NCBI RefSeq assembly: GCF_004193775.1
Contig: NC_041002.1
Coordinates: 18,533,535 to 18,597,534 of the forward strand
Length of the DNA: 64,000 nucleotides
Direction: 5' to 3'
Source of the DNA: Glycine soja
Taxonomy: Eukaryota > Streptophyta > Magnoliopsida > Fabales > Fabaceae
Position 1 is the stretch's first letter. The number at the start of each line of letters is the position of its first letter. Below the pieces are notes generated by a model, which did no database searches, was not told the origin of the DNA, and saw nothing but the letters and a program-made list of their open reading frames with translations. This document shows positions 35,180 through 60,345 of this stretch, piece by piece. Made by a program: the position numbers and the translations under genes.

Positions 35180-36166
35180 ACCCCCTTTTAAATGATAGGC
35201 TTAGAATGCGGAAGAAGAAGAAAAAGAAGCAATCAATTTAACAATGTTCTTTTAAATGCGTAAGATAAAATTGATTACAATAAAATAAATGAGATAAGGG
35301 AAGAGAGAAATGCAAACTCAATTTATACTGGTTCGGTTACTTCCCGTGCCTACGTCCAGTCCTCAAGCAACCCACTTGAGATTTTCACTAACTTTGTAAA
35401 AACCTTTTTACAACATCTGAACACCTAAGGAATCCCTTTCCCTTGTGTTCAGGAAACTCACAATTCAAGAGACAACCAGTCTATTGATTACAATTGATTT
35501 TCTGAGATGAACAAAAAGATTTCTCTCCTTTAGAGTGGATAATACAATTTGATGTTCCTAGATGAACTCTCAATAGATTTGCAAGTGTTTGCCCAAGAGT
35601 TGTTGAGAGAGCATTTGACAATGAAGTTCTCTTAGAATATCTCTTTCTTGCTTTTCGAAGTCAAACACACATATATATAGGTCCTTTGTGCCTTTTCAAA
35701 ATGGTTTGAAGAAATGTGTCTTTTCAAAAAGCTTTTTCTGAAATTCTTCACTGACAATCGATTACAGGTTTCTGGTAATCGATTTCACAATTATATTTTG
35801 AAGGGTCATGTCTTTCCAAATTGAATTTCAAGAGTTCCATTGCTGGTAATCGATTACACATCAATGGTAATCAATTACACATTCAAAATTCAAATTTCAA
35901 ACCCTTTTAAGAAGCTGATTTGCAAACTTGTCTTCTGGTAATCGATTACACTGCCTGGTAATCGATTACCAGAGCCTTGACATGTTGGAAACACTTGTTT
36001 TGAGGAAAAAATTGATCTTGAATGAATCTTGAAGCAATGCTTGTTTGTTGAAGCAACCTTGTCTTAATCTTGAAGCAATGCTTAACCTTTACTGTTTGTT
36101 GAAGTGATCTTGAAAGCAACCTTGTTTGATTATTCTTTGACATCATCAAAATCATGTATTCATACA
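35180..36166. mobile_element. SIRE-like LTR, boundaries approximate
   Basis: It shares blocks with the Sirevirus LTR at 57076: AATGCAAACTCAATTTATAC, GGTTCGG, GTGCCTACGTCCAGTCC, and three pairs of the TGGTAATCGATTACCA palindrome (from 35755, 35847 and 35939). Its 3' end ATCATGTATTCATACA resembles the end of that LTR. The 5' boundary and any target duplication could not be fixed. Confidence 0.6.
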
Positions 36167-36325
36167 TTCAAATGTACACAATCTAAAACGGAAACATATT
36201 TTCGTTTTAGGTTTTGTACACACAATGGAACCATGATTCCATTGTGGGTTTCAAAAATTTTAAAACTGGAACAACATTCTTGCATACAAAATCTACAACA
36301 GAAACGTGTTTCCATGTACAAAATT

Positions 36326-37514
36326 TGTTGGATCAAGTGGCCTCAGAATAATTAAGAAGGGGGGTTGAATTAATGATGAACGTGTCTTGGCTAATTAAAA
36401 ATTATCTCAGGCGGTTAGTCCTTTGAATTCTCTGTGAGGGGGATACAAAAGATATCTCAGGCGGTTAGTCCTTTGAAATCTTTTGTATAAAGGGAAAGGG
36501 AAAAAGATATCTCAGGTGGTTAGTCCTTTGAAATCTTTTGTCAAGAGGGAGAAGGGAAGAAACAAAAGAATTCTCAGGCGGTTAGTCCTTTGAATCTTTT
36601 GACAAGAGAAAGAAGTGAATGAAGAAAAAGAATAGCACAAGTTTTTGATCAATGAACTTTTCTTGAAAGAGAAAGTATTGAACAAAAACTTTTAGAAAGA
36701 TGAAGGAAATCTGTTATGCATAAAAGGAAATCAGTATTAGTTGTTATTGAAATTCATGCCATGATCACATATTTATAATCATTTGATGACTCAAGTTAAA
36801 GTTTGTGACTCTTGGCAATTTCTTTAAAACTAGTCACCTTTTAAAAATTGTGACTCTTTTGAAAACTAGTCACTTAAAAAGTTGTGACTTTTGAAAAAAT
36901 CTTCAGAAACAAGTCACTTTAAAAATTGTGACTTTTGGAAATTTATTTTTCAAAATTAGTCATTGGTAATCGATTACCATTATAGTGTAATCGATTAGAC
37001 ATCAAAAGATGTGACTCTTCATGTTTAAATTTGAAAATCAAAACGTTTAGAAACACTGGTAATCGATTACAAGTATTGTGTAATTGATTACACAAGTTTA
37101 AAATGATTTGAAAATGTTTTATCACTAGATGTGACTTTTGAAATTTGAAATCTAACGTTTTAAAACATTGGTAATCGATTACATGATTATGGTAATTGAT
37201 TACAGCTTTGTAAATCAGTTTTGAAAACAATGCTAGTTACTGGTAATCGATTACTACCTTCTGGTAATCGATTACCAGAGAGTAAAACTCTTTGGTAAAA
37301 GATTTTGTGAAAAATTCCTGTGCTACTCAATATTTTGAAAAACTTTTTTAGTACTTATCTTGATTGAGTCTTGAATCTTGATCTTGATTATTCTTGAATC
37401 TTGATTCTTTGAAACTTGATTCTTGAAGCTTTTTGACTCCTGATTCTTTGGAACTTGCTTAACTCTTGATTCTTTAGTATCATCAAAATAATCTTGGAAG
37501 TCATTGCTTCCACA
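36326..37514 (+). mobile_element. Solo SIRE-like LTR, TSD AAATT
   Basis: 1189 bp from TGTTGGATCAAGTGGCCTC to GCTTCCACA, flanked by AAATT at 36321-36325 and 37515-37519. The start matches the Sirevirus LTR at 57076 (CAAGTGGCCTCAGA...TTAAGAAGGGGGG). It contains four imperfect repeats of TCTCAGGCGGTTAGTCCTTT (36405, 36455, 36510, 36572) and four palindrome pairs (36967-37275). No internal region remains, so the element was removed by LTR-LTR recombination. By comparison with the element at 57076, sense is opposite to the plus strand if that alignment holds end to end. Confidence 0.9.
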
Positions 37515-37829
37515 AAATTCACAACGGAAACATATTTCCATTTTAGATTTTGTACGCAGCCCATGTTCGCACAACAAAATTATGGTTTTGAAATTAAAAA
37601 AAAAGAATCACTACTCCACTAAGTCAAAAAGAAAAACTTACCCTGTCTCGAATTATTAAAACGAGAGAGAGAATAAGATAAATTAGGAAGGGGAAGGAGT
37701 GGGGGTGTAGGAAAACCTCAGAAGGATAAAATGGTCATTTGCTAAGGCTTGGTAGTGCTAATAGAAATTTTGATAGTGACAATAGCAACTCCTATCTAAT
37801 AAAGTTAAGCAAAGAGTCCCAATCGGCGT

Positions 37830-38158
37830 CCTTTATCCTATTATCCACTTCATGTTTTGCCAAAAAATCTACACACTAATTTCCTTCTCTAAATATATGG
37901 GAAACCGAAAACGAAGCTAAGAACAAAGTCGAAGATATTGATTCCATCTACTTCAGTAATCCCAAGGGACGACACTAGGATTACCAAACACAGTCACAAC
38001 TAATTTAGAATCACATTTCAACTAGATCTTGATCAAACCTACGTGTTCTATAACCATCATGGCTGCCAACATTCTAACCATTTCTTATAGGCTTTCTATT
38101 GAAAAAACTTGCATTTCTCCACACTGACAATTTGACCAGAAGTTTCCTGTTAGACTAT
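37830..38158 (-). pseudogene. LINE-type RNase H domain relic
   Basis: Minus-strand pieces NCQCGEMQVFSIESL, MVRMLAAMMVIEHV, LKCDSKLVV and SRWNQ resemble the RVT_3 RNase H-like domain found at the end of plant LINE polyproteins. Frameshifts and stops interrupt it, and the LTR-like block at 38159 cuts it off. Confidence 0.55.
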
Positions 38159-39462
38159 TGACAACCATACCAACGTTATCGCAAGTTACAAATTTTATAA
38201 AAGAGATCATCTCCACAAGGACTTGAGTTACTTAGTTTCTCTAGATAAAAGTAAACAGTTCAATAGTTATGTACAACAAATTTAATTGAAATTTTATGGG
38301 TTTAATGAAAATAACAAAAGTAGTGGAAATAACGTAATTAGTGCATTGAAAATACGTAAAATTACGAAAACAAGTAAAATGAATTTAATTGATTCAAGAG
38401 AAACGTAGGATTGAATTTCATTGTTCATACCGTTAGTATCCTAATAAGATTAATATATATGAATCATTTTCTAACATCACTAATGCACACATTAAATTAC
38501 CCCGAATCGATCCCTCGTACATGAGAATCCTAAGAATATTTACCGAATATCAATTCCTTGCTTATTGAATAAATATCCCAGCAACACAATCATAATCACG
38601 TGCTATTTGCAATCAAACCGTTATGCTCTATTCCTAGCAACGTAACGTAAAGAGTAAATTCATTCAATTCAAATTCTAAGAGTACTTTTCAGTCAAACTT
38701 AAAATCCAATTTCTTGAAACTAGTGATCAAATTGAATCAAGCCTTATGAGCAAAATGAAATCACTAGTAATGAGTAGAAAATATTCATACATTTATAAAA
38801 TATCAAAAGAGATACATAAGGGTACAAAGATTTCATCCAATCCTTTTGAGAAACTAGCCAATCATTGTGTAGAGTACAAGATCAATAGAAGAAATGATGA
38901 AGGATGTGATCCATGGTCACTTCTCTGCAGCTCAGCTCCACTTTTCTCTCATTTCTGTCACCTCTTCGTGCTATTTCTTTGGTTTCTCTGCATTCCATCC
39001 TTGCTTCCTTGTTGTGCATGGATTTTTATACAAAATGAGCCAAGAGGTGCCAAACCAACTCGCCCAGGCAAGTTGTACTCGCCCAGGTGAGTTGGTTGCT
39101 TAAGGCTAAAGACATTCCACTCGCCCAAGCAAGCTGTACTCACCCAGGTGAGTTGAATGCTTAAGGTTGAAGAAACTTCACTAGCCCATGCGAGTTGGTT
39201 GCTAGCTTGGGCGAATGGTACTCTGAAATATTGCAAAAATGACCCTTTTGCCCTTCATCTTTGGCTTGGTTCCTAGATCTAACAAACAACCATCAAAACA
39301 TAAGAAGTGCATGGATGAATACTCCATATTTAAACAAAACATTAATAAATATACAATATATAAAACAACTAGAATTAAGGAAAGTTTATAAGAAAACTAT
39401 TACAGTTAAAAGTTAAGTGCTAACAATTTATCCCAAAAATAATTAAAATATGGAACTTATCA
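38159..39462 (-). repeat. Putative solo LTR with repeated CTCGCCCAGG motif
   Basis: The segment TGACAACCATACC to GGAACTTATCA has TG...CA ends and the general layout of the tRNA-Asp family LTRs. It carries at least five variants of CTCGCCCAGGCGAGTTG at 39058-39220. Flanks (ACTAT and CTTCC) do not match, so the boundaries are provisional. Confidence 0.4.
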
Positions 39463-39696
39463 CTTCCTCATAGAACTTAAATAACAACTTCAAAATTTTC
39501 ATGTTTTTTATGGTCCCTCTACAGAAAACCTTAATGTCTTAAATATATAAACCATGGGTTAGAGCCACACAACCTCTAGGACCTTCCACTGACAACAGAT
39601 GATGATTACCCACCAAATAAGAGATCCCCTGCTAAGGACATCTTCAGCTAAGCAAAATTACAGGGGCGATACAACATCCCTCTGTCACACACCCCT
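39463..39696. other. Unassigned flank
   Basis: Short non-coding stretch between the putative LTR and the CACTA-type terminus; nothing recognised. Confidence 0.4.
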
Positions 39697-40486
39697 CACT
39701 ACTAAAAAATAGGTTTTTGACATCGGTTGTTTTTGACATTCAACATTGGTTAAGAACCAATGTTGAAGCCACCGACATTAACATTATCAATGTTAACATT
39801 GGTTTTCAAAAAATCGACGTTAACATACACTACACAACATCAATTTTTACGAAAATCGATATCGTATAGTAAGAAATATACGAAAAAAACATAAAAACTG
39901 CAAAAACAACATCGGTTTTTTTTACAACATCGGTTTTACCAAAATCGATGTTGTTTTTTTGTAAAAAAAATTAATATTTTGTCTAATTTTATATTAAAAT
40001 TATTTAAAATATTATTTTCATTACAATATCACATTACTTACAATCTCATAATATTAATCTATAAACAAATTTAAATGATAGTTATCAAACTATAAAGTAT
40101 AAATATTACTCATTTCCAACTTACATATATATCCTATCACAAAATAAGTAAAAAATAGATTTTATAATTATTTTCTACTAGTTTACAGGTTTGGCCCTTA
40201 CCCTTGCTTTCTATGTCCAAAGCTAGTGGTTCGTTTCCCCTGGGTGCATTAAAATAAGCCTACAGGTTCCAAATTGAATAGTTAATAGTTGTAAACTAAA
40301 GCATATCTTACTATTTAACTCTATAAGCAAGTGATTGTTCTCTCACCTTGTCTTAAATAAACATGTCCAAAGCTACATGAATATGGTTTTAAATGGAATG
40401 ACAAGGAAAATCTAGTGTTTACATATGCATAATGAGAAATGGACAACAATCTATAAAAAAGAAAATAAAAGGTTTAATTACTCTAC

Positions 40487-40672
40487 ATATCCTTAAAGTT
40501 TTACCAAATTTTTTAATTAGGTCCCCTGAACTTGTATGTATTTTTTAATTAGGTCCATGTCGACCTAATTAAAAAACAAATATAAGTTCAAGGACCTAAG
40601 TGGAAAAAAATAAAATAGTTCAGGGCCTTATTTAAAAATATAAAAGTTCAAGGACCTAATTAAAAATTACCA
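40487..40672. repeat. Hairpin-forming block
   Basis: TTTTTAATTAGGTCC occurs twice on the left and GGACCTAATTAAAAA on the right, with AAGTTCAAGGACCTAA between. It looks like a decayed MITE inside the CACTA-like element. Confidence 0.5.
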
Positions 40673-40797
40673 ACCTTTGTAGGCCGATATTCTCACCTCT
40701 GCAGGTCGGTATTCTCACTTTTGCAATTTTTTGTTTCAATTGGATCCTTGAACTTGTATTCATATGAAAGGAAAAAAAGAGTTCCCAAGACATCATC

Positions 40798-40833
40798 GTA
40801 ATAATAATAATAGTAATAATAATAATAATAATA

Positions 40834-40901
<68 letters not shown>

Positions 40902-40922
40902 AGTAATCATCATCATCATCAT
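40798..40922. repeat. Compound microsatellite (TAA)n(TGA)n(TCA)n
   Basis: An uninterrupted run of TAA-type, then about 19 GAT-type units, then CAT units in the inverse sense. It is open in several frames, which explains the poly-Asp/His/Ile frames; they are not genes. Confidence 0.95.
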
Positions 40923-41447
40923 CTTCAAATTGCACAATTTAATACAAAAATAGATTACTCAATGATTTATAATGATTCTTGTTCACTAACCAAAGTTAAA
41001 ATAAAATAAATTTACAAAAATTATTAAACAGTTGTATAATTAAAATAACTTATTTAACCTTTCACTAAAATTATCAAACACAAAATAACACACTAATATT
41101 TCACTTGGACCATAATTTAAAAAGAGAGTTATTGCTCAAGTGTATTCATTTTTAAATAAGTACAAAACTTAAAAGTATTATGAATAAATAAAAACCATGC
41201 AAGTTGGATCCTGAAATTCCTCGACTTTTATTTCATTCATGCAAATAAATATGAAAGCTCAAGACTTCTTCCTTTTGTCAAAAAACTGAAATGACTGACT
41301 CTACTAGAGTAGACTTATTACATGCATGGTGGTCCTATATAACATCTCATTAATTAATCTAAAAACACATCTTTCAAAGTCAGAGTGTGATTATTTCTAA
41401 CTTTGTAGACGATGTTGACCTATACATGTCACCAAACTCTTGCAAAA
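40923..41447. other. Non-coding interior of the CACTA-like element
   Basis: AT-rich, many stops, no recognised domain or repeat. Confidence 0.4.
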
Positions 41448-41452
41448 GGGTG

Positions 41453-42361
41453 TGATGCAATCCTACCCCGCAAGGGCATTGGATAGAAGACTCCAAGTAG
41501 ATTGGGCCAGAGATCCAAGGGAAGACCCTAGGGTTCCCATGAGCCTTAGGGTAGATTTCGAGCCCATGGGCTAAGTATGAGCTGGCTTATCTTTGTAAAT
41601 ATTAGAATAAGTTTTTTCCTTCGTTTAGGCCTTGTATTTTGGCCATTCTAGTAGTATAGGGTTTTAGCCTTGTATTTCGAGGCATTTTGAGTAGTCTTTG
41701 TAGTATGGACCTTTTTTGTATTTTCATGAATTTTTTTGTTATGGGGGTGAGCTTAGCTATTATAGGGGTGTGTAGCTAAGTTCTAGCTTCTCATCTCAAG
41801 GAGGTGAGCTTAGCTATTAGAGAGGTATGTGTAGCTAAGCTCTAGCTTCTTTAGGAATCTTCTTAAGGAAGCTTCTCAAGGAGGTGAGCTTAGTTATGAG
41901 AGGGGTGTGTGTAGCTAAGCTCTAGCTTCTCAAGGAAGTTTTCTCAAAGAAGCTTCTCAAGGAAGTTTTCTCAAGAAAGGTTCTCAAGGAAGCTACCTAG
42001 TCTATAAATAGAAGCATGTGTAACACTTGTTGTAACTTTGATGAATGAGAGTCTTGTGAGACATACTTCAAAGTTCCACTTCTCTCCCTCTTTTATTCCT
42101 TCAATTTCGTGCTCCCCCCTCTCTCTTTCTCTCCCTCTTTCTTTTCCTTCATTGAAGCATCCTTCCAAGCTTCTTATCCAAGGCTCATCTTGGTGGTGAA
42201 GCTCCTTCTTCCATGGCTTATTCCCTAGTGGATGGCGCCTCCTCTCACCTCTTCTCCTTTGTCTTCTGCTGCATCTCCATGGTTGAAAATCACCATTAAA
42301 GGACATCATTGAAGCTCAAAGATCCATCCTCCATAGAAGCCCCACAAGCAAGCTTCCATCA
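41453..42361 (+). mobile_element. Solo LTR, TSD GGGTG
   Basis: 909 bp from TGATGCAATCC to AAGCTTCCATCA, flanked by GGGTG at 41448-41452 and 42362-42366. It is the same family as the LTRs at 1057 and 5504 but in the opposite orientation. No internal sequence remains. Confidence 0.95.
42001..42010 (+). promoter_or_regulatory. LTR TATA box
   Basis: TCTATAAATA in sense orientation within the solo LTR. The same box is present, reversed, near 1400 and 5850 in the nested element's LTRs. Confidence 0.6.
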
Positions 42362-42366
42362 GGGTG

Positions 42367-43383
42367 GATCACTATCAACAAGTTTTTTTTATTCTTCTAT
42401 GCAACTTTGATGCATCCTCCTAAAGGCTTGCAAGGATCCTCAATACTTGGCTGGTTGATCTTGCAATAAGTGCAATAAGATCGAGTATTAGTCAATTCTA
42501 TTAATTTGCACCAAAACTGAAGGCTATATACTTAGTGTGCATCATTATCTTAATTGAATGGTTTAATTGATACAAGGTACATGTAGAAACTTCTTTTTTT
42601 TTTTTTAAAGAAAAAATTCCCAAAGCTTAATTTGATAAAATATTGAATAAAATTATTTCTCAAAAAAAGGTTGACAGAATCTTACCCAGATACAAGGGTA
42701 TTTCACAACAACAATTCACTTATGGGTCATACCACCAACTCATTCATTTTGTTCATTCTACTTGCAACTTAGAGCAACGATCAATATCATCACTTCAAAT
42801 AATTTATGATGAAGTAGCTAGGCATAGGAAATCCTTGCATGCAAACCTCCTAATTTTACAAAGTAACCAACAACAAGCAATTCAAGAGAATGAATGAATT
42901 GGAAATAAGCTTTAAGACACTAGTCCTTGGCCAACTTTGTTTGAACTTCAAGGCAATCACTGTGGCTGCTCTTAAAACCATATTTAATTACAACACAAAA
43001 TCAGGGCTCGATACACATCAAAAATAGGTTCTAAATATAGATTAGACCAATTAACAACCAAACAAGGCTAATAGGAGTTACCTGTTCATAAATGGATTGT
43101 TTTATACCACTATAAACAATAATAATTTCCAAATTTAAAGAAGAGCAAGGAAATAATTTATTTATTTTTATACTAAAAAGGGGGAATAAGCTATGCTAAG
43201 CTCTAAAAGCAAAATTAATCATTTTATTGCAAATATGCAAATTCTTTGTATAACAGTAGTAACTCATGAAACTAATTGCAGAAAAACAGACATAAGTGCA
43301 ATAGCACATGTAGTGCAACAAAAGATGTCAAACAATTTTTTTTTCACAAAACAGTGATAAAATAAAGGGGCAAAAGAGAATAC
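42367..43383. other. CACTA-like element interior, unassigned
   Basis: The frame 42643-42897 (84 residues) has no recognised domain. GAATCTTACCCAGATACAAG at 42671 recurs as GAATCTTACCCATATACAGG at about 43899, both followed by GGTATTTCACA, suggesting local duplication. Confidence 0.35.
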
Positions 43384-43836
43384 CTGCTCAGGTGCTCTGG
43401 GAGGAGCGGGCCTCTGCGAATGTGAAGGACTTTTCTCTTCCCGCAATCCAGAAGGTGTTTTTGAATTCCCATCTCTTGGAACCCGTCTCTTATTGTCATA
43501 CCTTTAAAGTTTAAATATATACAATGATTGAAACTAGGCACTTCAAACAGTACAAAGATAAAAATTTAGCATGATTCAAGGAGTTTATCATAGACATACT
43601 TTGCACGAAAGAAATTCTCAATTCCAACTCTATGATAATTTGGAGGTATTTCTACTTCCCAGAAACAATTTGCTTTCTCGTTTCCCATTGTTGTACAGGA
43701 TCAAAACAATATAAGAAGTTATCACATAAGTAATGCACATAAGACAAATTCAAAATAACAACAAACTCATGATCATTCAGATTTTCTTACATTGAATGAA
43801 TGCAACTTGCTCTGGAAGCCAAGTGTCAAGGGTTGC
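43384..43836 (-). pseudogene. Captured ArfGAP gene fragment, three exons
   Basis: Minus-strand exons: about 43836-43791 (TLDTWLPEQVAFIQ, GT donor), 43690-43600 (MGNEKANCFWEVEIPPNYH, then GIENFFRAK, GT donor) and 43501-43384 (VPRDGNSKTPSGLREEKSPS). The motif order is that of the end of the ArfGAP zinc-finger domain in plant AGD5/AGD15-type proteins, which activate GTP hydrolysis by Arf GTPases at the trans-Golgi. The acceptor expected before the second exon reads AA rather than AG, so it would not splice normally. The catalytic zinc finger exons are missing. Introns are retained, so this was copied from genomic DNA, not from mRNA. Confidence 0.8.
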
Positions 43837-44330
43837 AAAACGAATTTACAAGGAAAGTCATAAGTAAATATACAAGAAAGTCGTAAGTGGTTCATAGAAT
43901 CTTACCCATATACAGGGGTATTTCACACAGAAAGCTACTTTACACACAGAAAGCAAAACAAAAATTAAAATAGAGCTGATTTGATCATTACAAGGAAACT
44001 ATATATCAATGAGAAGTAATGGAGAGGTGTACATGGTTTTATAATGGAGAGGCTTTTACCAGTGCCGCCATCCCCTCTGCCACTGCCACCACCATGCTCA
44101 CCAAGTACACCATACTCAACCCCAAGTCCACCATCAGCTCCACCAACGCCTTCATAACCCCCGTGTCGCAACCTACCCTTCGACGGGAGGGCGACACGGG
44201 GCTCACAGGTGCGTCTTCCAAGGGAGGAAGGTGTTCGGAGTCACCACCAATGTTTATTCGAGGAAAATGTCAGAAAAACCGAAATGTGTGGTCTACGAAC
44301 TTTAAGTGTGAAAGGTTCGGGAGATGTTTT

Positions 44331-45273
44331 TGATGCAATCCTACCCCCTAAGGGCATTGGATGGAAGACTCCAAGAAGATTGGGCCAAAGATGCAAGAGA
44401 AGGCCCTAGGGTTCTCATGAGCCTTAGGGTAGATTTCGGGCCTATGGGCTAAGTATGAGCCCACTTATCTTTGTACATATTAGATTAAGGTTTCATTATT
44501 TTTGGGCTTGTATTTATAGCCTCATAATGTAGGTAGGGTACCCTAGAAATATAGGATATTTTAGCCCTTGTATTTTAGGGCACCCAAACTAGTTTTTGTA
44601 TTAGGGGTAGTTTTGTAATTTCACATGCACTAAGTGAATATTTGATGTGTGTGTTGGGAAATAAATTTAATTGAATTGGTAGAAGCCCAATCCAATTAAA
44701 TTTTAGAGGGGGAGGTGAGCATTTGCTTGCTACACCCCATTGCCACATCATATAGTCACACTTTGTGCATGTCCTTCATGCTTTACATGCCTCATGACAC
44801 CTAAGCACACTTAGTGGAGAATCTTGGACTTGATCTTGGATTAGTGGGCTGAACCATATCTAAAATTCACTAATCATAATTTGTGAAATTTTGGCTCCAC
44901 AAATTCAATTTCAAATTCAAGTGAAATTTTCCCTCCAATTTTGTGTGACATTTAGGCTATAAATAGAGGTTATGTGTGTGCATTTTTTTCAACTTTGATC
45001 ATTTGAATATTAAACTTCAGTTTTCAGAGCTCTTTTAGAGCACAAAATTTCGTGCTCTTATCTTCCTCTCCCTTCATTCATCTACTTCTTCCTCCAAGCT
45101 CTTATCCATGACCTCCTATGGTGGTGATCTTCTTCTAGACTCATCTTCTCCTTGAAGTGGTGTCTCCTCTCTCTCTTCCTTCTTCATTCTACTGCCATTC
45201 ATCTTCCAAGAAGCAAAGGAATCCATTGATGAAGAAGATCCTAGGCCTACAAGCTCCAATGGAGCTTAAATCA
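44331..45273 (+). mobile_element. Solo LTR, TSD GTTTT
   Basis: 943 bp from TGATGCAATCC to GAGCTTAAATCA with GTTTT at 44326-44330 and 45274-45278. It is a diverged relative of the LTR at 41453, sharing the start, TCCAAGAAGATTGGGCC-like blocks and a TATAAATAG box near 44957. The host LTR is continuous across it when compared with 48050-48110. Confidence 0.93.
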
Positions 45274-45599
45274 GTTTTTACGCACGGGGAAGGTATTAGC
45301 ACCCCACACGTCCGTCTATTAACACCCCACGTGTCCGTCACAAGGGACGACAACCTTTAATCGAGTATGAAAGACATGACTTCAAAATTATGTATTTTTC
45401 CCTTTTTTATGTTTTTATGTTTTTTATGAGCCTTTTGTATTTTTTATCTTTTTGTGGTCAACAAGGGTTTTTCCCTAGCTCCTATGTATCCTTAATAGCG
45501 ATGAGGAAATCAGACCTACGTAGTTCTTTCAAAACTAAACGTTGGTTAAGTTGTTTTTATCCTTTTTCGCAAGATATATTTTAACCGAACAAAAGTCAT

Positions 45600-45785
45600 T
45601 TAAGGCATTGGACCTTTAAACGATCTTTTGATTTTGAAAAGGAGAGAAACGTTAAGGCGTTGGACCATTAACGATCTCTTGGTTTTTGAAAGGAGAGAAA
45701 TGTTAAGGTGTTGGACCATTAACGATCTCTTGGTTTTTGGAAGGAGAGAAACGTTAAGGCGTTGGACCATTAACGATCTCTTGGG
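45600..45785. repeat. 51-bp tandem repeats in LTR
   Basis: GTTAAGGCGTTGGACC recurs at 45651, 45702 and 45753. Because 51 is a multiple of 3 the array is open on both strands and yields repeated 17-residue units; no protein is inferred. Confidence 0.9.
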
Positions 45786-49619: not shown

Positions 49620-49634
49620 ATTGCCCCTCTTTAC
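49620..49634 (-). other. Polypurine tract
   Basis: GTAAAGAGGGGCAAT on the minus strand, immediately before the LTR start. The same tract precedes the LTR at 11411. Confidence 0.75.
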
Positions 49635-49974
49635 TTATCTTTTATTGGAGATAAAAGCGAAGTAAAGATAAGACACTAATTTCGTTCGAGCGGAACATCA
49701 TTCGGCCGGTCAATATCCCCACCAGCGGAACCTGTCATTCAGAAAGAAAAGAAAGGGCATCAGCAGTGTCAACAAAATTCAGTGTCTTGGAAGCGACAAA
49801 GTTGGACAACCACGACACTTCCCTACGCCATTGCACTCAATCATCCCTACCCAGCAGAGAAGAATCTCGCGCGTCGTTGGGCTTGAATGTTTTCGGACGA
49901 TGAGAGTAAAACCTACAAAATTTTTGAAAATAATCAAAACCGAATGACCAACATCATCTTGATATCGTCTAATT

Positions 49975-50598
49975 CGTTCCCCTCAGTTGACGAAAGGTGC
50001 GGATGACCATAAGGTATCTCCATCTGCCACCTGACTCGCTGTCCCTGGATGACAAAAGGTGCAGAAGACGATGTTAGTCTCTGCGTGTCAACGGGCTCGT
50101 TTGCTCCCTGGTTGACGAAAGGTGTAGGTAACCATAAGGTAACCCCGCATGTCACCAGATTTCACGGGTCAGGACGACAGAAGGTGCAGGAGACGATGTG
50201 AGTCTCTGCGCGTTAACGGGCTCGTTTGCCCCCTGGTTGACGAAAGGTGCGGGTAACCATAAGGTAACCCTGCATGTCACCTGACTTCACGAGTCAAGAC
50301 GATAGAAGGTGCAGGTGACGATGTTAGTCTCTGCGCGTCAACGGGCTCGTTTGCCCCCTGGTTGACGAAAGGTGCAGGTAACCATGAGGTAACCCTGCAT
50401 GTCACCTGACTTCAAGGGTCAGGATGACAAAAGGTGCAGGAGACGATGTTAGTCTCTGCGCGTCAACGGGCTCGTTTGCCCCCTGGTTGACGAAAGGTGT
50501 GGGTAACCATAAGGTAACCCCGCATATCACCTGACTTCACGGGTCAGGACGACAGAAATTGCAGAAGACGATGTTAGTCTCTGCGCGCTATCGTGCCT
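49975..50598. repeat. 125-bp tandem repeat array
   Basis: The junction TTTGCCCCCTGGTTGACG falls at 50100, 50225, 50350 and 50475, an exact 125-bp period, with a diverged copy before it and a partial one after. Each unit contains GGTAACCATAAGGTAACCC, itself an inverted repeat. Confidence 0.93.
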
Positions 50599-51430
50599 TA
50601 AGTCTTATGGATAGCGAAAGAATGTTTATACGAATAACCACCTGGGTATCTCCGCCTGCCCCCTAACTTCACGGGTTAGTATTGGCAGAAATTGTCCGCC
50701 TGCCCCCTAACTTCACGGGTTAGTATTGGCAGAAATTGTCTGTGTGGAGAAATTACTTGTGTATCTCCGCATGTCACCTGACTTCACGGGTCAGTATGAC
50801 AGACATTGTCTGTGTGGAGAATTACTTGTGTATCTCCGCACGTCACCTGACTTCACGGGTTAGTATGACAGACAACATGGAAGACGACGTAAATCTCCGC
50901 GTGTCAACGGGCTCGTTGGCCGCGATTGACAAAGGGTGCAGAAGACGATGTTAGTCTTTGCATGCTATCGCGCTTTGAGTCTTACAGATAGCGAAAGAGT
51001 GTTTATACAGATAACCACCTGGGTATCTCCGCTTACCCCCTAACTTCACGGGTTAGTATTGACAGAAATTGTCTGTGAGGAGAAATTACTTTTGTATCTT
51101 TGCCTGCCCCCTAACTTCACGGGTTAGTATTGGCAGAAATTGTTTGTGCGGAGAAATTACTTGTGTATCTCCGCACGTCACCCGACTTCACGGGTCAATA
51201 TGACAGACATTGTCTGTGTGGAGAATTACTTGTGTATCTCCGCACGTCACCTGACTTCACGGGTCAGTATGACAGACAGCGTGGAAGACGATGTAAATCT
51301 CCGCGTGTCAACGGGCTCGTTGGCCGCAATTGACAAAGGGTGCAGAAGACGACGTTAGTCTCTGCATGCTATCGTGCTTTGAGTCTTACGGATAGAGAAA
51401 GAGTGTTTATACGGATAATCACCTGGGTAT
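50587..51430. repeat. Higher-order repeat of about 380-400 bp
   Basis: GCTATCG.GC.TT.AGTCTTA begins at 50587, 50964 and 51368 (spacings 377 and 404). Inside each block subunits of about 65-70 bp containing GTATCTCCGCACGTCACCTG and TTCACGGGTCAGTATGACAG repeat two to four times. Confidence 0.85.
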
Positions 51431-51725
51431 CTCCGCCTGCCCCCTACATTTCCTCAATTTTTTATGAGGAACTTATACCTACTTAGTTCTTGCTAAAGAA
51501 GTGTGAGACTAAAATAGTCTCTACCGGAAGATGCTGACATCTCCGGAAAGGGTGCAGATGACCACATTGGTCTTTGCTTGTCAATCCGACTTGGGGTCTC
51601 CGAAAGACGAGGTGTGGATAACAGTAAGGTGTCTCCGCATGCTACTGGACTCTCGGGTCACTGGATAGAAAAGGGTGTGTGCTGGTTACCGTCGAGTGTC
51701 TCCGCATGCCACCGAACTCTTGGGT

Positions 51726-51836
51726 CACGGTAGCAAAAGGTAGGGTGGTCGACAAAAGCAGGGCTTTTGCTCCTACGTATCCTCAATTTGCGATGAGGAA
51801 CTCAGACCTACGTAATTCTTGCTAACTGTGTGGGAC
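51726..51836 (-). repeat. Embedded LTR core block
   Basis: GGTCGACAAAAGCAGGGCTT through CTCAGACCTACGTAATTC repeats a block found in the LTRs near 10393, 12237, 45510, 45842 and 48293. A shorter version lies at 51430-51480. LTR-derived DNA has therefore been incorporated into the interior. Confidence 0.6.
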
Positions 51837-52379
51837 TAAAATAGTCTCGGTGTTCTTTAACTAAAATGTGAACATGCTTTAGTAAAGAAACAAAACTCCC
51901 AACTGATCAGAGCAACATATATTTTTTGATGGAAAACAATGCGTCTATTGGGGAAGGAGAGTATGCTAATGAAATTTTCTCATAACCATAAATGAGATTT
52001 CGGATGTTAGCGTTTCGTTTTTAAATGATCATCTAGAGGAAACACTGGGTCCAACAAAAATAGAAGAAAATCACTCAAAGTGTATCAATCTCACACAGGT
52101 AAGTGTTTCATCCTAATTCCGAACCATAGATATGTCATGACTTGATTTTGCAAACCATTTCCTATCAAATCAAAGATTACACGCGTGATCATGGATCAAT
52201 AGAACTTTTTCTTGGGAATGGTGTTTTTTTTTGTGGGAAATTTGGCTTTGAGTGTTTGGGCCTTTTCCTTTTCAAAGGGAGAGGACCACTTTGGGTCATG
52301 GTTTCCTTTCTTTTCTTGTTTACATGTGACAATTCTGTATTGTTCAGATATTGTCTGGTCCAAAGACCTTTTTGTATAT

Positions 52380-52630
52380 TTCTTTTTGCTTTCTTCCGAT
52401 CTTTGATCGGGAATTTTCCTTTCTTTTTTGTTTTTTTCCAATCTTTGATCAAGAATTTTCTTTTCTTTGTTTTCTTCCAATCTTTGATCGGGAATTTTCT
52501 TTCTTTTTTGCTTTCTCTCAATCTTTGATTAGGAATTTTCTTCTTTTGCTTTCTCTCAATCTTTGATTGGGAATTTTCTTCTTTTGCTTTCTTCCGATCT
52601 TTGATCGGGAACATTCCTTTTTTGTTTTGT
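52380..52630. repeat. Short tandem repeats of about 42-45 bp
   Basis: TTCCGATCTTTGATCGGGAA and variants recur about six times, separated by pyrimidine-rich TTTTCTTTCTTTTTTG. The cores are small inverted repeats. Minus-strand frames give Lys-rich FPIKDRKKAK repeats that I do not interpret as a protein. Confidence 0.85.
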
Positions 52631-53145
52631 TTTCTTTTGAAGGCGAGGATGGGCATTCTCACCCTGGGTCAAGGTTTATGGTGAGTTGGGATTTTGGCTC
52701 AAGGCTTGTAGAATGGCTGGACACAATATATGTCAGAGTGTTGGTTTGGCCAGCGGTTCAGGGATAAAGGGGATGTCCCACATTATTTCCATGACACACA
52801 TGCAACAATGATGATTAGGAAATTTTATGCAAAACTGGTCATGCATGCACCCATGTGGACACTCAAGCATCAAGTTTTTATGGTTATGTGACACTAAGGC
52901 TCAGGATTCATTTTTCCTATTTAAGTCAACCCAGTGTTTCCAAAACATGTTCTTTTATCAATTCATGCATTCATCCAAGTCTATTTTGGGCGTTCGGTAA
53001 AATTTTCACAGCATTCACCCTTCAGGTGTATACACATTTTTTCAAAAACTGGTTATGATCAGTGAATCTTTTTCAAAGAAAAGCTAGAAGTTATTTCTCT
53101 TCAAAAGCATGTTGGCTTTTCAGTCGAAAGATATATTTTTTGTTC

Positions 53146-53196
53146 TTGTGAGGTATTTTTGCTATATACATGCATATCCAAGGTATCTTGCTACCT

Positions 53197-53248
<52 letters not shown>

Positions 53249-53330
53249 TGTGAGGTATTTTTGCTATATACATGCATATGTAAGGTATCTTTCTACCTAA
53301 ACACACATACATATATTTTGTGAGGTATGA
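53146..53330. repeat. Duplicated block around (AC)21 microsatellite
   Basis: TTGTGAGGTATTTTTGCTAT starts at 53146 and 53249, each running through GGTATC-TACCTAAACACAC; an AC run occupies 53199-53240. A third partial copy begins at about 53316. Confidence 0.88.
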
Positions 53331-53533
53331 CTACCTTTCGAGCTTGTGCTTGTTTTATTTAAATTCCTAGGATCATGAGCAACTAGGTGTGTCCTACTAT
53401 GACTTGAGAAACAAAAGGTGATTAAATAACAAGAAGAAATTTAAAAGGTACTAGGTTGCCTCCTAGTAGCGCTTCTTTAACGTCTTGAGCTGGACGCGTG
53501 ATGACTTGTCGGTCACGGACCTAGTGCTTTTGC

Positions 53534-53875
53534 TTACCTTTGGCTTTGGACTTGGTCGCCTGCTGGTCGGCCACGGGTCGTAGGCAACGCTCCAGCCTTT
53601 GTAGATGAGCTGAGGGGCTCTGGAGGTGGCGGCGATGCGTCTGTTGCCCCATGCTGGCCATCCCCAGGCTGCTGTGGTGTCTCACCCTGTGCCTGCCTGG
53701 GGACGCAATACTTCTTGATGAAAGCTCGGTTAGTAGGGGGCCTGATGACCCTGCTGGAGGTGACAGACACTCCGTAGAACTGACAGAGGCCCGTAATCAG
53801 AGCTAGATACCCCAAGACCCTGTTGTACTTCTCCGGGTCCACTGGGTGTCTTGCGGGCGTGATCCCTGCAAACAA
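53534..53875 (-). pseudogene. Plant transposon-protein domain, C-terminal relic
   Basis: Frame from ATG 53875 encodes LGYLALITGLCQFYGVSV, VIRPPTNRAFIKKYC and a Pro-rich tail. This resembles the C-terminal end of the 'putative plant transposon protein' domain found in the envelope-like region of soybean Ty3 elements (recalled, not searched). The N-terminal two-thirds is absent. A second damaged copy of the first 40 residues lies at 53935-54095. Confidence 0.55.
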
Positions 53876-53934
53876 TAGATGACATCATAAATTAGTTGAG
53901 AGAAGTGCATACTTACCTATGTCACGATGGCATG

Positions 53935-54095
53935 ACCTTGCTGGGGAGGACGGGGACCCTGTAGGACTGACAGAGGCCCATAACCAGAGCTGGAAACCCC
54001 AGGGCCCTGTTGGGCTCCTCCGGGTCCACTGGGTGTCTTGTGGGCGCGATCCCTACAAATAGTAGATGGCATCAGAAATCAGTTGAACCATATGC
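53935..54095 (-). repeat. Partial tandem duplication of the transposon-protein relic
   Basis: GACTGACAGAGGCCCATAAC to ACTTTCCTATG repeats 53775-53925 with about 15 percent changes by eye, including CTCCGGGTCCACTGGGTGTC in both. Confidence 0.8.
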
Positions 54096-54463
54096 ATACT
54101 TTCCTATGTTGGGATGGCACAGACCAACTGATACTTCCGCAGGGTGATCGGCATTGTGGTCACTGGGAAGAATGTTGCTAAGAAGCAACATCATTCATAT
54201 CTGTGTAAGAGTGGTCATGTTGGTGCGCATGATGCACACTCGTCTCTTTGCAGTGACACAGGTGAAATCTTGACCTGGTACGCATAGTAGCTGCGCGATA
54301 GCCTCCTCTTCTAGTTGTGCTCAAACAGTTAGCACTCCTCTAGGATTAGGGGGTGGCCCTAGAAAAGGAACTAATAAAAGGAAACTACTGGCCCCTTAAC
54401 CGGGAGCGCAAGTCTCGGTTAAGCATTAAGGGTAGAAGACCTCAAATTCTCTTAAGGTGCGGA

Positions 54464-54735
54464 TGTGGAGCCCACTGAAGGCGAGAGCGTGTAGCCCTCT
54501 GAAGGCGAGGACGTGTAGTCCTCTGAAGGGGAGGACGTGTAGTCCTTTGAAGTGAAGGACGTGTAGCCCTCTGAAGGCGAGGACGTGTAGTCCTCTGAAG
54601 GGGAGGACGTGTAGCCCTTTAAAGGTGAGGACGTGTAGTCCTCTGAAGGTGAGGACGTGTAGTCCTCTAAAGGTTAGGACATGTAGTCCTCTGAAGGTGA
54701 GGGCGTGCAGCCCTCTGATGGCAAGTACGTGTAGT
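54464..54735. repeat. 24-bp tandem array (8-residue repeat frame)
   Basis: About eleven copies of CTCTGAAGGCGAGGACGTGTAGTC-type units end exactly at the LTR start 54736. On the minus strand the array is open and reads HVLAFRGL repeats. The regular unit length keeps the frame, but no start context or family supports a real protein. Confidence 0.92.
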
Positions 54736-55869
54736 TGATCGAGGTCGTACCGAATCAAATAAACATGAAAATGCAGTAACTAGGAAGTGGTCCTAGGTCA
54801 TTTCCCAACGAGCAATGATAAACCAAATGTTCATAATACACTTGCAGTAACAGTAACGATTGGGGGGGGGGTTGTTTGTTTTGTGATTTAAAGGACAGAA
54901 AAAGTAAACTGGAATACGAAACTACTAATATTAAAAATGGGTTGTTTCCTCTGATTTAGAAGCCATTCTCTTATCCTGGGTTATGGAGAATTCGTCCCTA
55001 ACAGTTAACCACTTAATCCAACCCTATTTCAATTTACTAAGCGAAAATCAACTTAGGGTTGTCAATACGTGATTAGGCAACACATACACCAGTTAGCCCT
55101 TCGTCCATTAAGCATGAACGCAAGTTAGGCTCAGAGGCAATTAATCGAACACGAAGCGTGCACTGATTAATGTTCATGAATTTGGGTTAATTGGTGAAGG
55201 GGAAACTGCCAGGAAACCACATTATAAACGAAACCTCAAAAAGAGTTGGGCTTCGTCCTCAAAAGGAAACAACACCAGAAAATCTAGCCTTCCATAGATT
55301 CAAACAGAAAACGCAAATGAAACTAAAAGCAGAAACGTAAATGAAGCAAAAACGTAAATGAAAGTTGAAACGTAAATGAAAGTAGAAGAAGAAACAAGAA
55401 CGAAATTGTTATTAGAAGCAGAAAATGGAAAATTGCATTAAGAACCAAACAGTAGCATTCAAGCAAAAAAACGTAAAACCTAAACAAAGCTCTGAATAAT
55501 GAATAACATAAGAGAATAGCCTTCACGAATCCCAAGGCTGCTATTTAAAAAGAGTCACTCAAAGTCACTGGGCCCTATTACAATACTCTGGCCCAAAACG
55601 AAATAAACACTACATAAAATAAAATTGCGAAATTTCCTAATTAGAAATTAACTAAGGTAAGCGCTGCTTTATTTGCCCTCTTCAAGTCCACAACCAAAAT
55701 CCGGATTAAGCCCAATGTTTCATTAATTCCTGAAATTAGATTAAAAACATCAAATTAGCTAAATGAGCCCAAATAATAAAACTGCCTAATTAATTGACAA
55801 TTAAGACCAATCAGTAATTAAAATGGTGCAAAAAGGGTTTAGAAAATAGAAGAAAATGATGGCACATCA
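54736..55869 (-). repeat. 3' LTR of a tRNA-Asp-type Ty3 element
   Basis: 1134 bp, TGATCGAGGTC to GATGGCACATCA, same family as 7861-9105. AAAACCCCCCTT follows at 55870, the purine tract AAGGGGGGTTTT of a minus-strand element, so this is its 3' LTR and the interior continues to the right. Confidence 0.88.
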
Positions 55870-57070
55870 AAACCCCCCTTACTTAGCCTTTTGCACTCCT
55901 GGGCAAAATGAAACAAAGAACAAAGTCCAAGGATATCAAAGAGAGACAAACGAAAACATTCACATATTTCTCAATGAACATCAGGGAATGAAAGGAATGG
56001 GTAACATCTAACATAAGGAGATCCGAAAAGTCAAGACATTCATGAAAATCATCCAAGCAACCCAATCATGGCAAAATAGTTAATCAGCTCAAGAATGAAA
56101 AGTGATAAAGCCTCACAAGATATACACTCTATCTCTCAAGTGTCTAGGCTACTATTTACCCTCAAAGCACCCATGAAAACAAACACCACGTAAACTTTGC
56201 AAGATTCTAAAATTGACAATCAACCCATAAACACAAGCACATGAGGATCAAAAGGTCTTTTAAGGTTGTAATGGGGCCAAGGACAAGGTATGGAAAAATA
56301 TGGAATAAGTGGCTGAATCCCAAAGGAATAGAGGAGCAATGGAGAATAAGTGCATCTTAAGAAAAAAAATATGAAAATAAAAAGAAGTAAAGATAAAATT
56401 TAAACATAAAGAGTAGAACCAAGAGTCTCATCATTCTTTTGTCATTTAAGATCTTATTCACTCAACCTTATTGCTTTTCTTTTTCTTTTTCGATTTTTTT
56501 TTTTTGCATATGTAGCCTTTGAGAAACAACATCTCATTCAGCATGTCCAACATTTAACCAATATACAATGTACATCAAGTATGGCCCAAAATACATCATG
56601 AAGCATAGCCAACAAAACATGTTATCCAATGAAACAAAAACCCCCACACTTATTCCCAAAACAATTCCAAAGCTCCAAAATTCCTTAAGGATATGGTGAT
56701 ATCATGGTTTTTCATTTAAGGCTTGTAGTGAGCTTCAAAACAAGGAAAGGGAGACAAGGCTCAAAAGGGCTATCAAAGGAATTAATTCAAGGTAAGTCCA
56801 TTTGGCTAGAAGCTTATAAGAACAAAATTGCCTCAATCATTTCCAAATATTCATGTGAATTAGGAAGCATCAACAAGAATCAAGCCAAGGCTATTGTGCA
56901 AGCAATCAATGGGGCAAAACACACCAAATGATTATGATGATGGATGGCTCAAATTCTCACAAAGGTAAACTCATCACTTTCAAATTGAGCTTTCAAAACT
57001 ATCATGACATGTAGAGGAGAATCAAGGATTTCAAGTCACAAAATGTCAAGAACTTTTATTTTCAAAACAA
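55870..57070 (-). other. 3' internal region of the Ty3 element, non-coding
   Basis: Purine tract, then about 1.2 kb with no recognised domain; one 75-residue plus frame (56704-56931) is unassigned. It ends where the Sirevirus LTR is inserted at 57076. Confidence 0.55.
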
Positions 57071-57075
57071 TTACC

Positions 57076-58171
57076 TGTTAGCCAAGTGGCCTCAGATATC
57101 TTAAGAAGGGGGGGGGGGGTTGAATTAAGATATTCCAAACTATTTCCCCTAATTAAAAATCTATTTCACTTTTTACTCAAGTTATGAATTCCCTTAATGA
57201 CAATCTTCTTAAATATTAATTCAAATGAAACAATTTGAATATGAATATAAAGCAATAATAAATAAAGGAGATTAAGGGAAGAGAAAATGCAAACTCAGTT
57301 TTATACTGGTTCGGCCACAACCTTGTGCCTACGTCCAGTCCCCAAGCAACCCGCTTGAGAGTTCCACTATCTTGTAAATTCCTTTTACAAGTTCTAAACA
57401 CACAAGGACAATCCTTCCTTTGTGTTTAGAGATCCTTTACAACAAGAGACTCACAGTCTCTTAATCCCTTAGAGAATGAGAAGAAGAAGAAGAAAAAATC
57501 TCTCTAGAAAGAGATGGATTTTACAGATTAAGCACTCAAATAATTCCTTAATGAATTGCAATTGAATTGGCCAAGGAATTCTTAAGAGGATAAAATGAAT
57601 TTGCTCTTTGAGAGGATAAACACTTGTTGTTCTGAAAATCTCTGAGCAATTTCGTGTTTAAGTTACATATATATAGACCATTGGTGGTCATGAATAAAGC
57701 CTTTGAAAAGTTGTGACTCTTAAAATTATTTTTCTGAAAATCCTGTCTGGTAATCGATTACAGTAATTGTGTAATCGATTACAGCTTTTAAAATTTGAAT
57801 TAAAACGTTTACTAACTGCTGGTAATCGATTACCAAAATTGTGTAATCGATTACACAGTCTAAAATTTCGAATTCAAATTTTTAGTAGTTGTTATAAAAT
57901 ATATTTGGCCACTGGTAATCGATTACATCCTCTGGTAATTGATTACCAGAGAGTAAAACCTTTGTAAAACACTTTTTAATTTAAATTACTTGGCCAAACC
58001 TTTTGCTAATTCAATTAGGAATTCCCTTCCTAATATACTAGTGATCATCTTGATGCTGTGACTTGTAATCTTGAAGTATTGTCTTGAATTTAATCTTGAA
58101 AAGCCCATTTACATCAATTGCATCATATCATCATGATCATCATCAAAACATCAAAAGCAATTGCATCTACA
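57076..58171 (-). repeat. 3' LTR of the Sirevirus
   Basis: 1096 bp from TGTTAGCCAAGTGG to ATTGCATCTACA. It contains TTCGGCC...GTGCCTACGTCCAGTCC and three palindrome pairs (57751-57950). A run of 13 G at about 57108-57120 lies in the conserved TTAAGAAGGGGG block. Confidence 0.9.
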
Positions 58172-58195
58172 ATCTCCCCCTTTTTGATGATGACA
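58172..58195 (-). other. Polypurine tract of the Sirevirus
   Basis: CATCATCAAAAAGGGGGAGAT on the minus strand, a sequence highly conserved in Sireviruses, ending one base before the LTR. Confidence 0.9.
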
Positions 58196-58642
58196 ATACA
58201 ATACCTGAAATCAAGATTAAAGCAAGCAACAAACAATTGTATATAGATAAAATGTGCGTTTACTCCCCCTATATTTCGGAATTTATGATCACTTGATTTC
58301 TAAGGTTGTTAAGCTTTTTCTACAACCAACCTTTTCTCCCCCTTTGGCAACATCAAAAAGCCAAAGAACTAGGGAATCAACACAGATATAACAAAGGAGT
58401 AGAAAGATATAAAGATCAGAGTATAAAGCATAACCATCCAAACTCACAAACAAGAAATAATCAATCCAGAATCCAAATAACTCAAAATGTCAACAACCAC
58501 ACAATGTCAAAGCAGAAAAAGTCTGAAATCTTAATACCACAAGATAAATAAGCAAAGTACTTAACGTAATAATTGAAACTCTAAGAAACTTAAACAGCCA
58601 AAATACACGGCTTATTAAAGACTTATAATTAGAAACTAAAAT

Positions 58643-59779
58643 CTAAGAAGACGGAGGTGGTGGTGGAAGATCGAAACTCTGACGAATGTATCCGACATCC
58701 TCTTCAAGCTGTGTGAGGCGAATGTCCATACCGGCAAAGCGTGTATCTAACGAGTCGAAGCGGTCACCAACATAAGAACGAAGACCCCGTAATTCGGAGA
58801 GGACTTCATTCATGAGTGCGGAATCTTCACGTTGAGGGGGAGGTGAAGGAGTACGTTCATCTTGAGGAGGGAGTGCATCCTTCTTCAGCCATTGTCCATT
58901 CCGATCTTTACGATACCCAAAGGAGGTCACTGCACCAGCATCAATTGCAAAAGAACGCTTGACTTGAACAAAGGGTTCATCATCAAGCGGAATTTGAAAA
59001 TGACGCAAAAACAGAGTAATCAAATGTGGATAAGGAAGAGGTGCATTGGCCCGTAATGCCTTATGCATTCGGTACCGAACCAAATGGGCCCAGTCGATCT
59101 GACGACCGGTAAGAAAAGCCCACATAAGAATCAAATCCTCCTCAGAGGCTTGTGCTAAATTTGAAGACCGAGGAAGCAAAATTCTAACAATGATATAATG
59201 CATGATGCGATTATCAAATGTTAATGACCCGGCCAGCAATCTACCGGTCATTTCAGCTTGATCATTGCAGACCATGCGACGAGCATCATGACTCGAATAA
59301 TCGAATTTCCAGTCATCAACAATGGTGCCCTCAAAAGGTGCACCTGAACTGGGTAAATGAGTCAAAGAAAAGAATAGTGACTGATCAATGACCATAGAAG
59401 TACCATGCACCTCAGACATAATGATACCATCCTGAATTTTTAAATTGCAGTAGAAGACTTTTACAAGTTCAGGATAATATGGCAATTTTAATGACATGAA
59501 ATCAACAAGACCAGAATTTTGAAACACTTGATAGCAATCAAACGTTTCATCATTAAAGAACTCTACGTCTAGGTACTTAGGGTCTAAGATTATTCTTGAA
59601 GAAAACTGAGAAAGGTACCGTAGACGTTGATCATCGGATGGAAACAATGTTGATGATCTTGGAGATGACAAAGAAGGAGGAATAGGTGCTGTGGGTGCTC
59701 CGGATGGGCCGTGGCGGCGATGGGCAGCAGCAGCAGCGGTGGAGGATGATCCCTTTCTCTTCTTCGATGGCTCTGCCAT
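58643..59779 (-). CDS. Envelope-like ORF / plant transposon-protein domain
   Basis: 378 residues from ATG 59779. A basic KKRK near the start and an Ala/Pro/Ser-rich segment (residues 1-50) precede a domain at about 60-300 with YYPELVKVFYCNLKIQDG, EVHGTSMVID and ILMWAFLTGRQIDW, matching the plant transposon-protein domain as I remember it. A heptad-like region at about 325-370 (LRSYVGDRFDSLDTRFAGMD) is probably a coiled coil; the end is PPPPPSS. No signal peptide or membrane segment is visible, so true envelope function is doubtful. It lies 566 bp after pol and in a different frame, so it is not expressed by simple stop readthrough. Confidence 0.8.
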   Translation of the reverse strand: MAEPSKKRKGSSSTAAAAAHRRHGPSGAPTAPIPPSLSSPRSSTLFPSDDQRLRYLSQFSSRIILDPKYLDVEFFNDETFDCYQVFQNSGLVDFMSLKLPYYPELVKVFYCNLKIQDGIIMSEVHGTSMVIDQSLFFSLTHLPSSGAPFEGTIVDDWKFDYSSHDARRMVCNDQAEMTGRLLAGSLTFDNRIMHYIIVRILLPRSSNLAQASEEDLILMWAFLTGRQIDWAHLVRYRMHKALRANAPLPYPHLITLFLRHFQIPLDDEPFVQVKRSFAIDAGAVTSFGYRKDRNGQWLKKDALPPQDERTPSPPPQREDSALMNEVLSELRGLRSYVGDRFDSLDTRFAGMDIRLTQLEEDVGYIRQSFDLPPPPPSS

Positions 59780-60345
59780 TTGATGAAGTTTTTTTGGATT
59801 TTGATCAGTGGAAGTGAAAGAGGAGTGAAAAAGAGGAAGATTGGGCTTTACGGGACGTGATTTGGTGAAGAATTGAGTGAGAATCGAAGGTTTGAAGTTC
59901 TAGGTATGGAGGAAAACGTGGAGGAGGCTTTGGCTGCGCAGCAGCTCTGATTTCGTGAGTATTTATGGAAGATGACGCATTGTAATCGATTACAGGTATT
60001 GGTAATCGATTACAGGCCCAATAAGCCTTCTGGTAATCGATTACAGGATGTTGTAATCGATTACAGGCTCCCTGTTCATGTGTAATCGATTACACTGGAT
60101 GGTAATCGATTACCAGAGCCTATCCTAGGCTAGTTTCTTAAGAGAATATCCATGTTTATGCTCAAATACATCCTATATGACTAATTTTCACTACTAATAC
60201 ACTAAATTCAATCATTCAATTATTATATACACAAGAAATCATAAATTCTATCATAAAAACAAGAATTCAAACATGATCAAACAAACAAAATAATCTACAA
60301 TCAATAAGTAAGAGTAAATCAACCAATCAATCAACCAATCAATCC
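59780..60345 (-). other. Spacer between pol and envelope-like ORF
   Basis: Non-coding. It carries three palindrome pairs at 59983-60115 (separate entry). The remainder is AT-rich. Confidence 0.6.
59981..60116. promoter_or_regulatory. Cluster of three TGTAATCGATTACA pairs
   Basis: TAATCGATTA cores begin at 59983/60003, 60034/60054 and 60083/60103, each pair exactly 20 bp apart. They lie just upstream of the envelope-like ORF in its own sense, the place for an internal promoter. Function is inferred only from position and regularity. Confidence 0.6.

Follow-up and report, generated by a model that had tools for sequence, protein, structure and literature searches.

Why should one short palindrome recur in a plant genome in pairs whose members begin about two turns of the double helix apart? 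The question is raised by a stretch of 64,000 nucleotides from Glycine soja (C1:18,533,535-18,597,534, in an assembly of 1.01 Gb and 1,119 contigs; hereafter the window), in which the 12-base-pair (bp) palindrome GTAATCGATTAC forms four arrays, the two right-hand ones belonging to an envelope-type Sirevirus. The answer that we hold probable, though not strongly so, is that these are promoter-proximal dyad arrays, placed in the U3 (unique 3′) region of Sirevirus long terminal repeats (LTRs) and repeated before the envelope-like (env-like) gene, for a candidate dimeric host DNA-binding protein.

Pairing of the palindrome in the window and in the genome

When up to two mismatches were allowed, GTAATCGATTAC was found at 26 sites in the window, all of them in 13 pairs, and nowhere else in the 64 kb. 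The partners are spaced by 20 bp in 5 pairs and by 21 bp in 8 (13/13). An earlier inspection of the letters, the sequence-only reading, had listed 13 pairs, all 20 or 21 bp apart, and the 26 sites were recovered at the coordinates it gave. With TAATCGATTA and up to one mismatch, there were 29 matches in the window against a shuffle mean of 2.8 and a maximum of 7 (100 shuffles); 26 of the 29 are the sites listed earlier, and the other three (23787, 45358 and 46188) are isolated. The common core is the 12 bp of GTAATCGATTAC. The bases flanking this core vary, being mostly G or T before it and mostly A or C after it, so that the 16-mer TGGTAATCGATTACCA represents one variant only.

Over nine clusters of the window and the genome, 49 of 61 sites match the core completely, and 13 substitutions were counted over the 732 positions of the set. 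Six of these are transitions (C>T or G>A) of the central CpG, which fits the earlier remark that the variants are of the kind CpG decay would produce. In an alignment of four LTRs (six comparisons), divergence is 1.4-8.3% in the palindrome columns, 9-49% in those between palindromes and 13-34% in the 5′ flank, a contrast that may be favoured by the choice of sites for their likeness to the core and by possible anchoring of MAFFT on the palindromes. These values support constraint on the palindromes. The filler between partners behaves otherwise: among 31 pairs there are 28 distinct fillers, and the mean identity of their inner bases (0.31 for 9-mers, 0.18 for 8-mers) is close to random, whereas their length is 8 or 9 nucleotides in 31/31.

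The constant spacing around a variable filler, as described earlier for the window, holds genome-wide. Exact pairs of GTAATCGATTAC spaced by 12-42 bp number 40,358 in the whole genome, and 36,142 of them fall at 20-21 bp, that is 89.6% as against 6.5% if spacings were uniform; reversed-pattern controls gave 0 each time. A further 29,369 exact pairs are spaced by 43-72 bp, a range that includes pairs skipping a site, and 48 of the 50 listed among them lie at 50-52 or 70-72 bp. The genome data consist of the totals for these two ranges together with the count at 20-21 bp, and the spacing check proposed by the sequence-only reading was thus run in part. The peak at 20-21 bp is present and the filler is not conserved, so neither of the outcomes which that reading had said would speak against it, a missing peak or a conserved filler, was seen. 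The 16-mer TGGTAATCGATTACCA occurs 31,272 times in the genome.

Genomic stretches of 10 kb were sampled at 26 arbitrary places, 21 of them on C1 and the remaining 5 on other chromosomes. Four of these stretches contain clusters (L121, L126, L132 and L146), and all 18 adjacent gaps of up to 150 bp in the sample are 20, 21, 51, 52 or 71 bp. Five lone sites with two mismatches also occur in the sampled stretches, and a 27th stretch, L149, has one lone site near its end. The 12-mer was found exactly 39 times in 324 kb, whereas 179 palindromes with identical half-site composition averaged 0.022 occurrences. A chance origin of the sites is ruled out by these control palindromes and by the window shuffles.

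Elements that carry the pairs

The right-hand element of the window lies on the minus strand and shows the marks of a Sirevirus, namely a copia pol, multiple AGGGGGAG polypurine tracts, an AT/TG attachment site and an open reading frame (ORF) in the envelope position; this assignment rests on the part within the window, the 5′ part of the element being outside it. Multiple polypurine tracts and the AT/TG attachment site are given as Sirevirus marks by Bousios et al. (2010; PMC2829016). The 3′ LTR extends from 58171 to lower coordinates, and its first 225 bp precede array 3. Arrays 3 and 4 (Table 1) support the earlier statement that the pairs are used in SIRE-like LTRs and a second time ahead of the env-like ORF. 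A TATA-like box lies 74-75 bp downstream in four of the six Sirevirus-type LTR arrays checked, and the weak ATAAATA after array 4 is a predicted internal env promoter. Arrays 1 and 2 lie to the left of this element, in LTR-like stretches. The region of array 1 is 67.8% identical to L126 over 738 bp, and its 5′ flank differs by 31-34% from three related LTRs. The arrays have a GC content of 28-40% and an observed/expected CpG ratio of 0.84-1.76, against 0.52 for the window. Rfam gave no family match for window positions 35000-61000, and a scan of viral_contigs gave 0 matches. Palindromes of the AAACGTTT type were also noticed at 57801-57812 and 37039-37050, 20-21 bp ahead of a pair; they are possibly eroded or alternative sites.

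Table 1. Palindrome arrays and associated features of the window (positions in the window; array spacings in bp)
Feature	Position	Strand	Description
TATA-like box	35672..35680	-	74 bp after array 1
Array 1	35754..35969	.	Three pairs, spacings 21, 21, 20; between pairs 71, 71; sites 35754, 35775, 35846, 35867, 35938, 35958; diverged Sirevirus-type LTR stretch
Array 2	36966..37275	.	Four pairs, each with spacing 21; inter-pair gaps 72, 91, 51; second LTR-like stretch
TATA-like box CTATATATA	57668..57676	-	74 bp after array 3
Array 3	57750..57946	.	Three pairs, spacings 21, 21, 20; between pairs 51, 72; 3′ LTR of envelope-type Sirevirus (minus strand)
AT/TG attachment site	58170..58173	-	Form as in PMC2829016
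Polypurine tract AGGGGGAG	58174..58181	-	Adjoins AT/TG attachment site
Other AGGGGGAG copies	58263-58270 and 58336-58343	-	
ORF in envelope position, 418 amino acids	58646..59899	-	PF20167, E=1.9e-15
Weak TATA-like ATAAATA	59960..59966	-	15 bp after array 4, env strand
Array 4	59982..60113	.	Three pairs, each with spacing 20; inter-pair gaps 31, 29; located after the pol ORF and ahead of the env-like ORF
Ty1/copia pol ORF	60349..63444	-	RVT_2 5e-75, rve, gag_pre-integrs

Elsewhere in the genome, the pairs occur in two LTR-like families. The LTR region of array 3 is 91% identical to L126 and 81% identical to L121 over 1.1 kb, and by sequence these two stretches carry the Sirevirus LTR of array 3; L146 was grouped with them by eye. 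The second family is represented by L132 and its neighbour L141, in which 24 sites lie in an insert of about 7.9 kb. This insert runs from TGTGGCG to TGTCACA (TG..CA) and is flanked by a 5-bp target duplication, AAAAT; its intra-pair spacing is again 20-21 bp. Four pieces of it from outside the arrays gave no blastn match to the window except host-LTR sequence, and across the arrays it aligns to the window over up to 121 bp at 72-73%. It sits within a Ty3/gypsy LTR, an uninterrupted copy of which is found in L143. The possibility that the array-bearing DNA of L141/L132 is this Ty3/gypsy LTR itself is ruled out, since it is a separate insert and the uninterrupted LTR in L143 lacks the palindromes. 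Pfam searches gave no match for six short ORFs of the insert and nothing bearing on the arrays for seven ORFs of L121, L126 and L132, where one L121 ORF matches DUF4218/DUF4216 and one L132 ORF gives a weak zinc-knuckle match. As a separate observation, window positions 54750-55872 are 92-96% identical to the Ty3/gypsy LTR split by the insert in L141/L132.

Proposed paired binding sites or inherited spacing

The position of the arrays, the conservation of the sites, the free filler and the two-turn spacing together fit paired dyad sites for a dimeric protein. On this reading each 12-bp palindrome would form one dyad, whose two half-sites (roughly TKGTAATC) are contacted by a dimer of a DNA-binding protein of the host. 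A pair would then carry two dimers on the same side of the helix, separated by two turns and probably binding cooperatively, and the bound pairs may drive the LTR promoter about 75 bp downstream, while array 4 possibly drives an internal env promoter. That arrays change in size through recombination between palindromes is supported by the lost step, tandem units and relics described below. Binding by a host protein, cooperativity and activation are all steps that we infer. As to the factor, our guess would be plant homeodomain proteins that read GTAAT/ATTAC, presumably of the HD-ZIP III or ZF-HD type.

A broader version of this proposal is held tentatively, as something possible rather than likely: an undescribed legume protein would read TKGTAATC dyad pairs two turns apart in a cooperative manner, and the promoters of at least two LTR-retrotransposon families would be built on such pairs, of which more than 36,000 are exact. 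A 12-bp dyad that recurs tens of thousands of times in the genome at one pair spacing is a directly testable bait and could place many retrotransposon promoters under a single candidate regulator.

Several points weigh against paired sites for a dimer. The outer bases are complementary within the site in 24/31 second partners but only in 10/31 first partners, so that the full dyad is not uniformly kept. The closest TATA-like site of array 2 is 188 bp off, and L146 is without a TATA-like site in 260 bp. The site of the HB-9 probe, which we take to be of the HD-ZIP III class, agrees with the arrays in part: the probe carries GTAATGATTAC, whose half-sites GTAAT and ATTAC are like those here, but it has one base between them where the arrays have two central bases, in a comparison confined to sites chosen for resembling the 12-mer, with no search aimed at one-base forms (PMC6478692). 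Pairs are also partly copies of one another, and their spacing may therefore be inherited: tandem units of 72-73 bp are present in L132 and L141, and arrays 1 and 4 end in pairs that share 95% identity over 40 bp. A rough estimate of the chance that all fillers stay at 8-9 nucleotides under neutral length drift ranges from 0.29 to <0.0001 depending on the assumptions. The spacing between pairs, finally, is less regular than it first seemed. Measured in turns of 10.2 bp, the 22 inter-pair gaps of the window and samples come to about 3, 5, 7 or 9, none of 20,000 random sets being as strongly phased (10 group-wise values), and 27 distances among listed 16-mers on C1 favour 10.2 bp (collapsed p=0.0012). 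However, 19 clusters from the first 50 listed C1 pairs add gaps of 57, 80, 83 and 85 bp, with which the phasing falls to p=0.006 group-wise and 0.25 class-wise; the added gaps come from exact sites only, so that a long one could conceal a mutated site. The odd-turn phasing between pairs is weakened by these wider data and has been downgraded, and the intra-pair spacing rule alone is held as firm.

The explanation that competes best is module duplication without selection on spacing. It supposes one ancestral pair, from which steps of about 20 bp were copied or deleted by recombination between palindromes, so that the spacing is inherited. Such a step was indeed lost in L121, where a single site at 3833-3844 stands in place of the pair at 6596-6627 of L126; a precise 20-column deletion between the palindromes has fused the two into one. 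Eleven spacers bear palindrome-like relics 20, 21 or 41 bp from a site (+0.78 matches, 3.9 standard deviations over shuffles), at offsets picked after the data had been inspected, and the gaps of 57-85 bp break the inter-pair phasing. Taken together, the lost step, the tandem units and the relics make inherited spacing a serious rival. Yet near-random fillers keep to 8 or 9 nucleotides without exception, while the spacers of related LTRs vary by indels as well as by substitutions, and conservation of the core amid diverged intervening sequence is not readily explained by copying alone. We consider duplication without selection unlikely on balance. The claim of the sequence-only reading that two dimer sites are under selection is upheld as regards fixed spacing and free filler, but selected and inherited spacing are not fully separated.

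A function at the RNA level is quite improbable. The palindromes would then be kept as strong hairpins in the genomic RNA (3′ U3), for production of small RNAs or for RNA dimerisation. The RNA folding of three arrays is far below that of shuffles (z of -10.1, -8.9 and -13.0), and maize Sirevirus palindromes are small-RNA hot spots, a link credited to Bousios (2016) in two later reports (PMC5311732; PMC10760457). Any array of a single palindrome would be expected to fold in this way, however, a stem would not need the 20-21 bp rule, and no Rfam family appeared in the region searched. Complementarity between partners beyond the 12-mer is below that of shuffles (12 vs 15.9, 7 vs 10.5, 12 vs 16.0 and 1 vs 7.4 of 31). 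The lack of excess complementarity outside the 12-mer favours DNA half-sites, and it is probably not through an RNA stem that the pairs are kept. Least probable is a host silencing target, in which a repressor or heterochromatin factor recognises pairs that persist by homogenisation: abundance and CpG-type decay would fit methylated copies, but such targets would be expected to be lost under selection on the element, and the location upstream of TATA and the env-like ORF points to use by the element.

Known palindromic arrays and other repeats

The sequence-only reading knew of no described factor or function for this arrangement, and its implied view that nothing of the sort is on record was mistaken. 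According to Bousios et al. (2010; PMC2829016), palindromic repeated motifs (RM) cluster in Sirevirus LTRs before the TATA box and also upstream of ENV, among them ACAATCGATTGT of Tnd-1. Since RM boxes have the same placement and the Tnd-1 motif shares an 8-bp core, this kind of array is already known. The RM table comprises 13 elements, none named as soybean, and SIRE1-1 is named among the elements without RM boxes. A common binding factor for RM boxes was not found there, and host factors acting on Sirevirus motifs are a question that the paper leaves open.

Judged by that description, the arrays resemble RM boxes in being a high-copy palindrome clustered ahead of TATA in the LTR's upper half, conserved amid divergent flanks and with extra copies upstream of ENV. 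RM boxes number at least 8 copies per element; the window element has 6 sites in the 3′ LTR and 6 before the env-like ORF, where array 4 takes the place of the ENV copies. The TATA box follows shortly after the cluster in both, 74 bp away in the window element and, in RM elements, on average 37 bp after a CpG island. The arrays here are AT-rich and have no such island, which Tnd-1 also lacks. In place of the CGG-CCG core of RM boxes they have AATCGATT, identical to the 8-bp core of Tnd-1, the paper's exception. The Tnd-1 motif (PMC2829016, Table 3) is likewise palindromic, with 8 LTR copies, but its outer bases are AC..GT instead of GT..AC and it has no ENV copies. RM boxes are given as restricted to Sireviruses; the pairs also occur in an LTR-like insert whose superfamily may or may not be that of Sireviruses. 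The strict pairing at 20-21 bp has no counterpart in the main-text sections on the motif, which do not mention pair spacing. The maize Sirevirus palindromes CACCGGACNNNGTCCGGTG likewise cluster in the cis-region of the LTR and have strong predicted structure, but they differ in sequence and are linked to small RNAs in those reports (PMC5311732; PMC10760457). Among titles and abstract openings of the open literature, no report was found of the motif in a plant element or of two-turn pairing. The motif, the two-turn pairing and its apparent sharing by two LTR-like families are thus new as far as found, and the arrays are an unusually strict version of a known kind.

The 12-mer also occurs in bacteria. 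In GTDB bacterial contigs (L001-L119), 86 of 120 pairs among the matches listed (119 loci) are spaced by 30-32 bp; many are in enterobacterial genera and resemble operator pairs of a bacterial regulator. They are taken as unrelated to the plant arrays.

Other repeats were observed in the window. A 365-bp unit occurs six times in tandem at 19459-21583, its copies being 97-98% alike to the one taken as reference, and shorter tandem arrays consist of 64-bp units (10678-11184) and 24-bp units (54411-54770). Near-identical direct repeats at 1057-1961 and 5504-6430, about 4.45 kb apart, are possibly an LTR pair, and inverted relatives of them lie 35-40 kb away, near 41450-42360.

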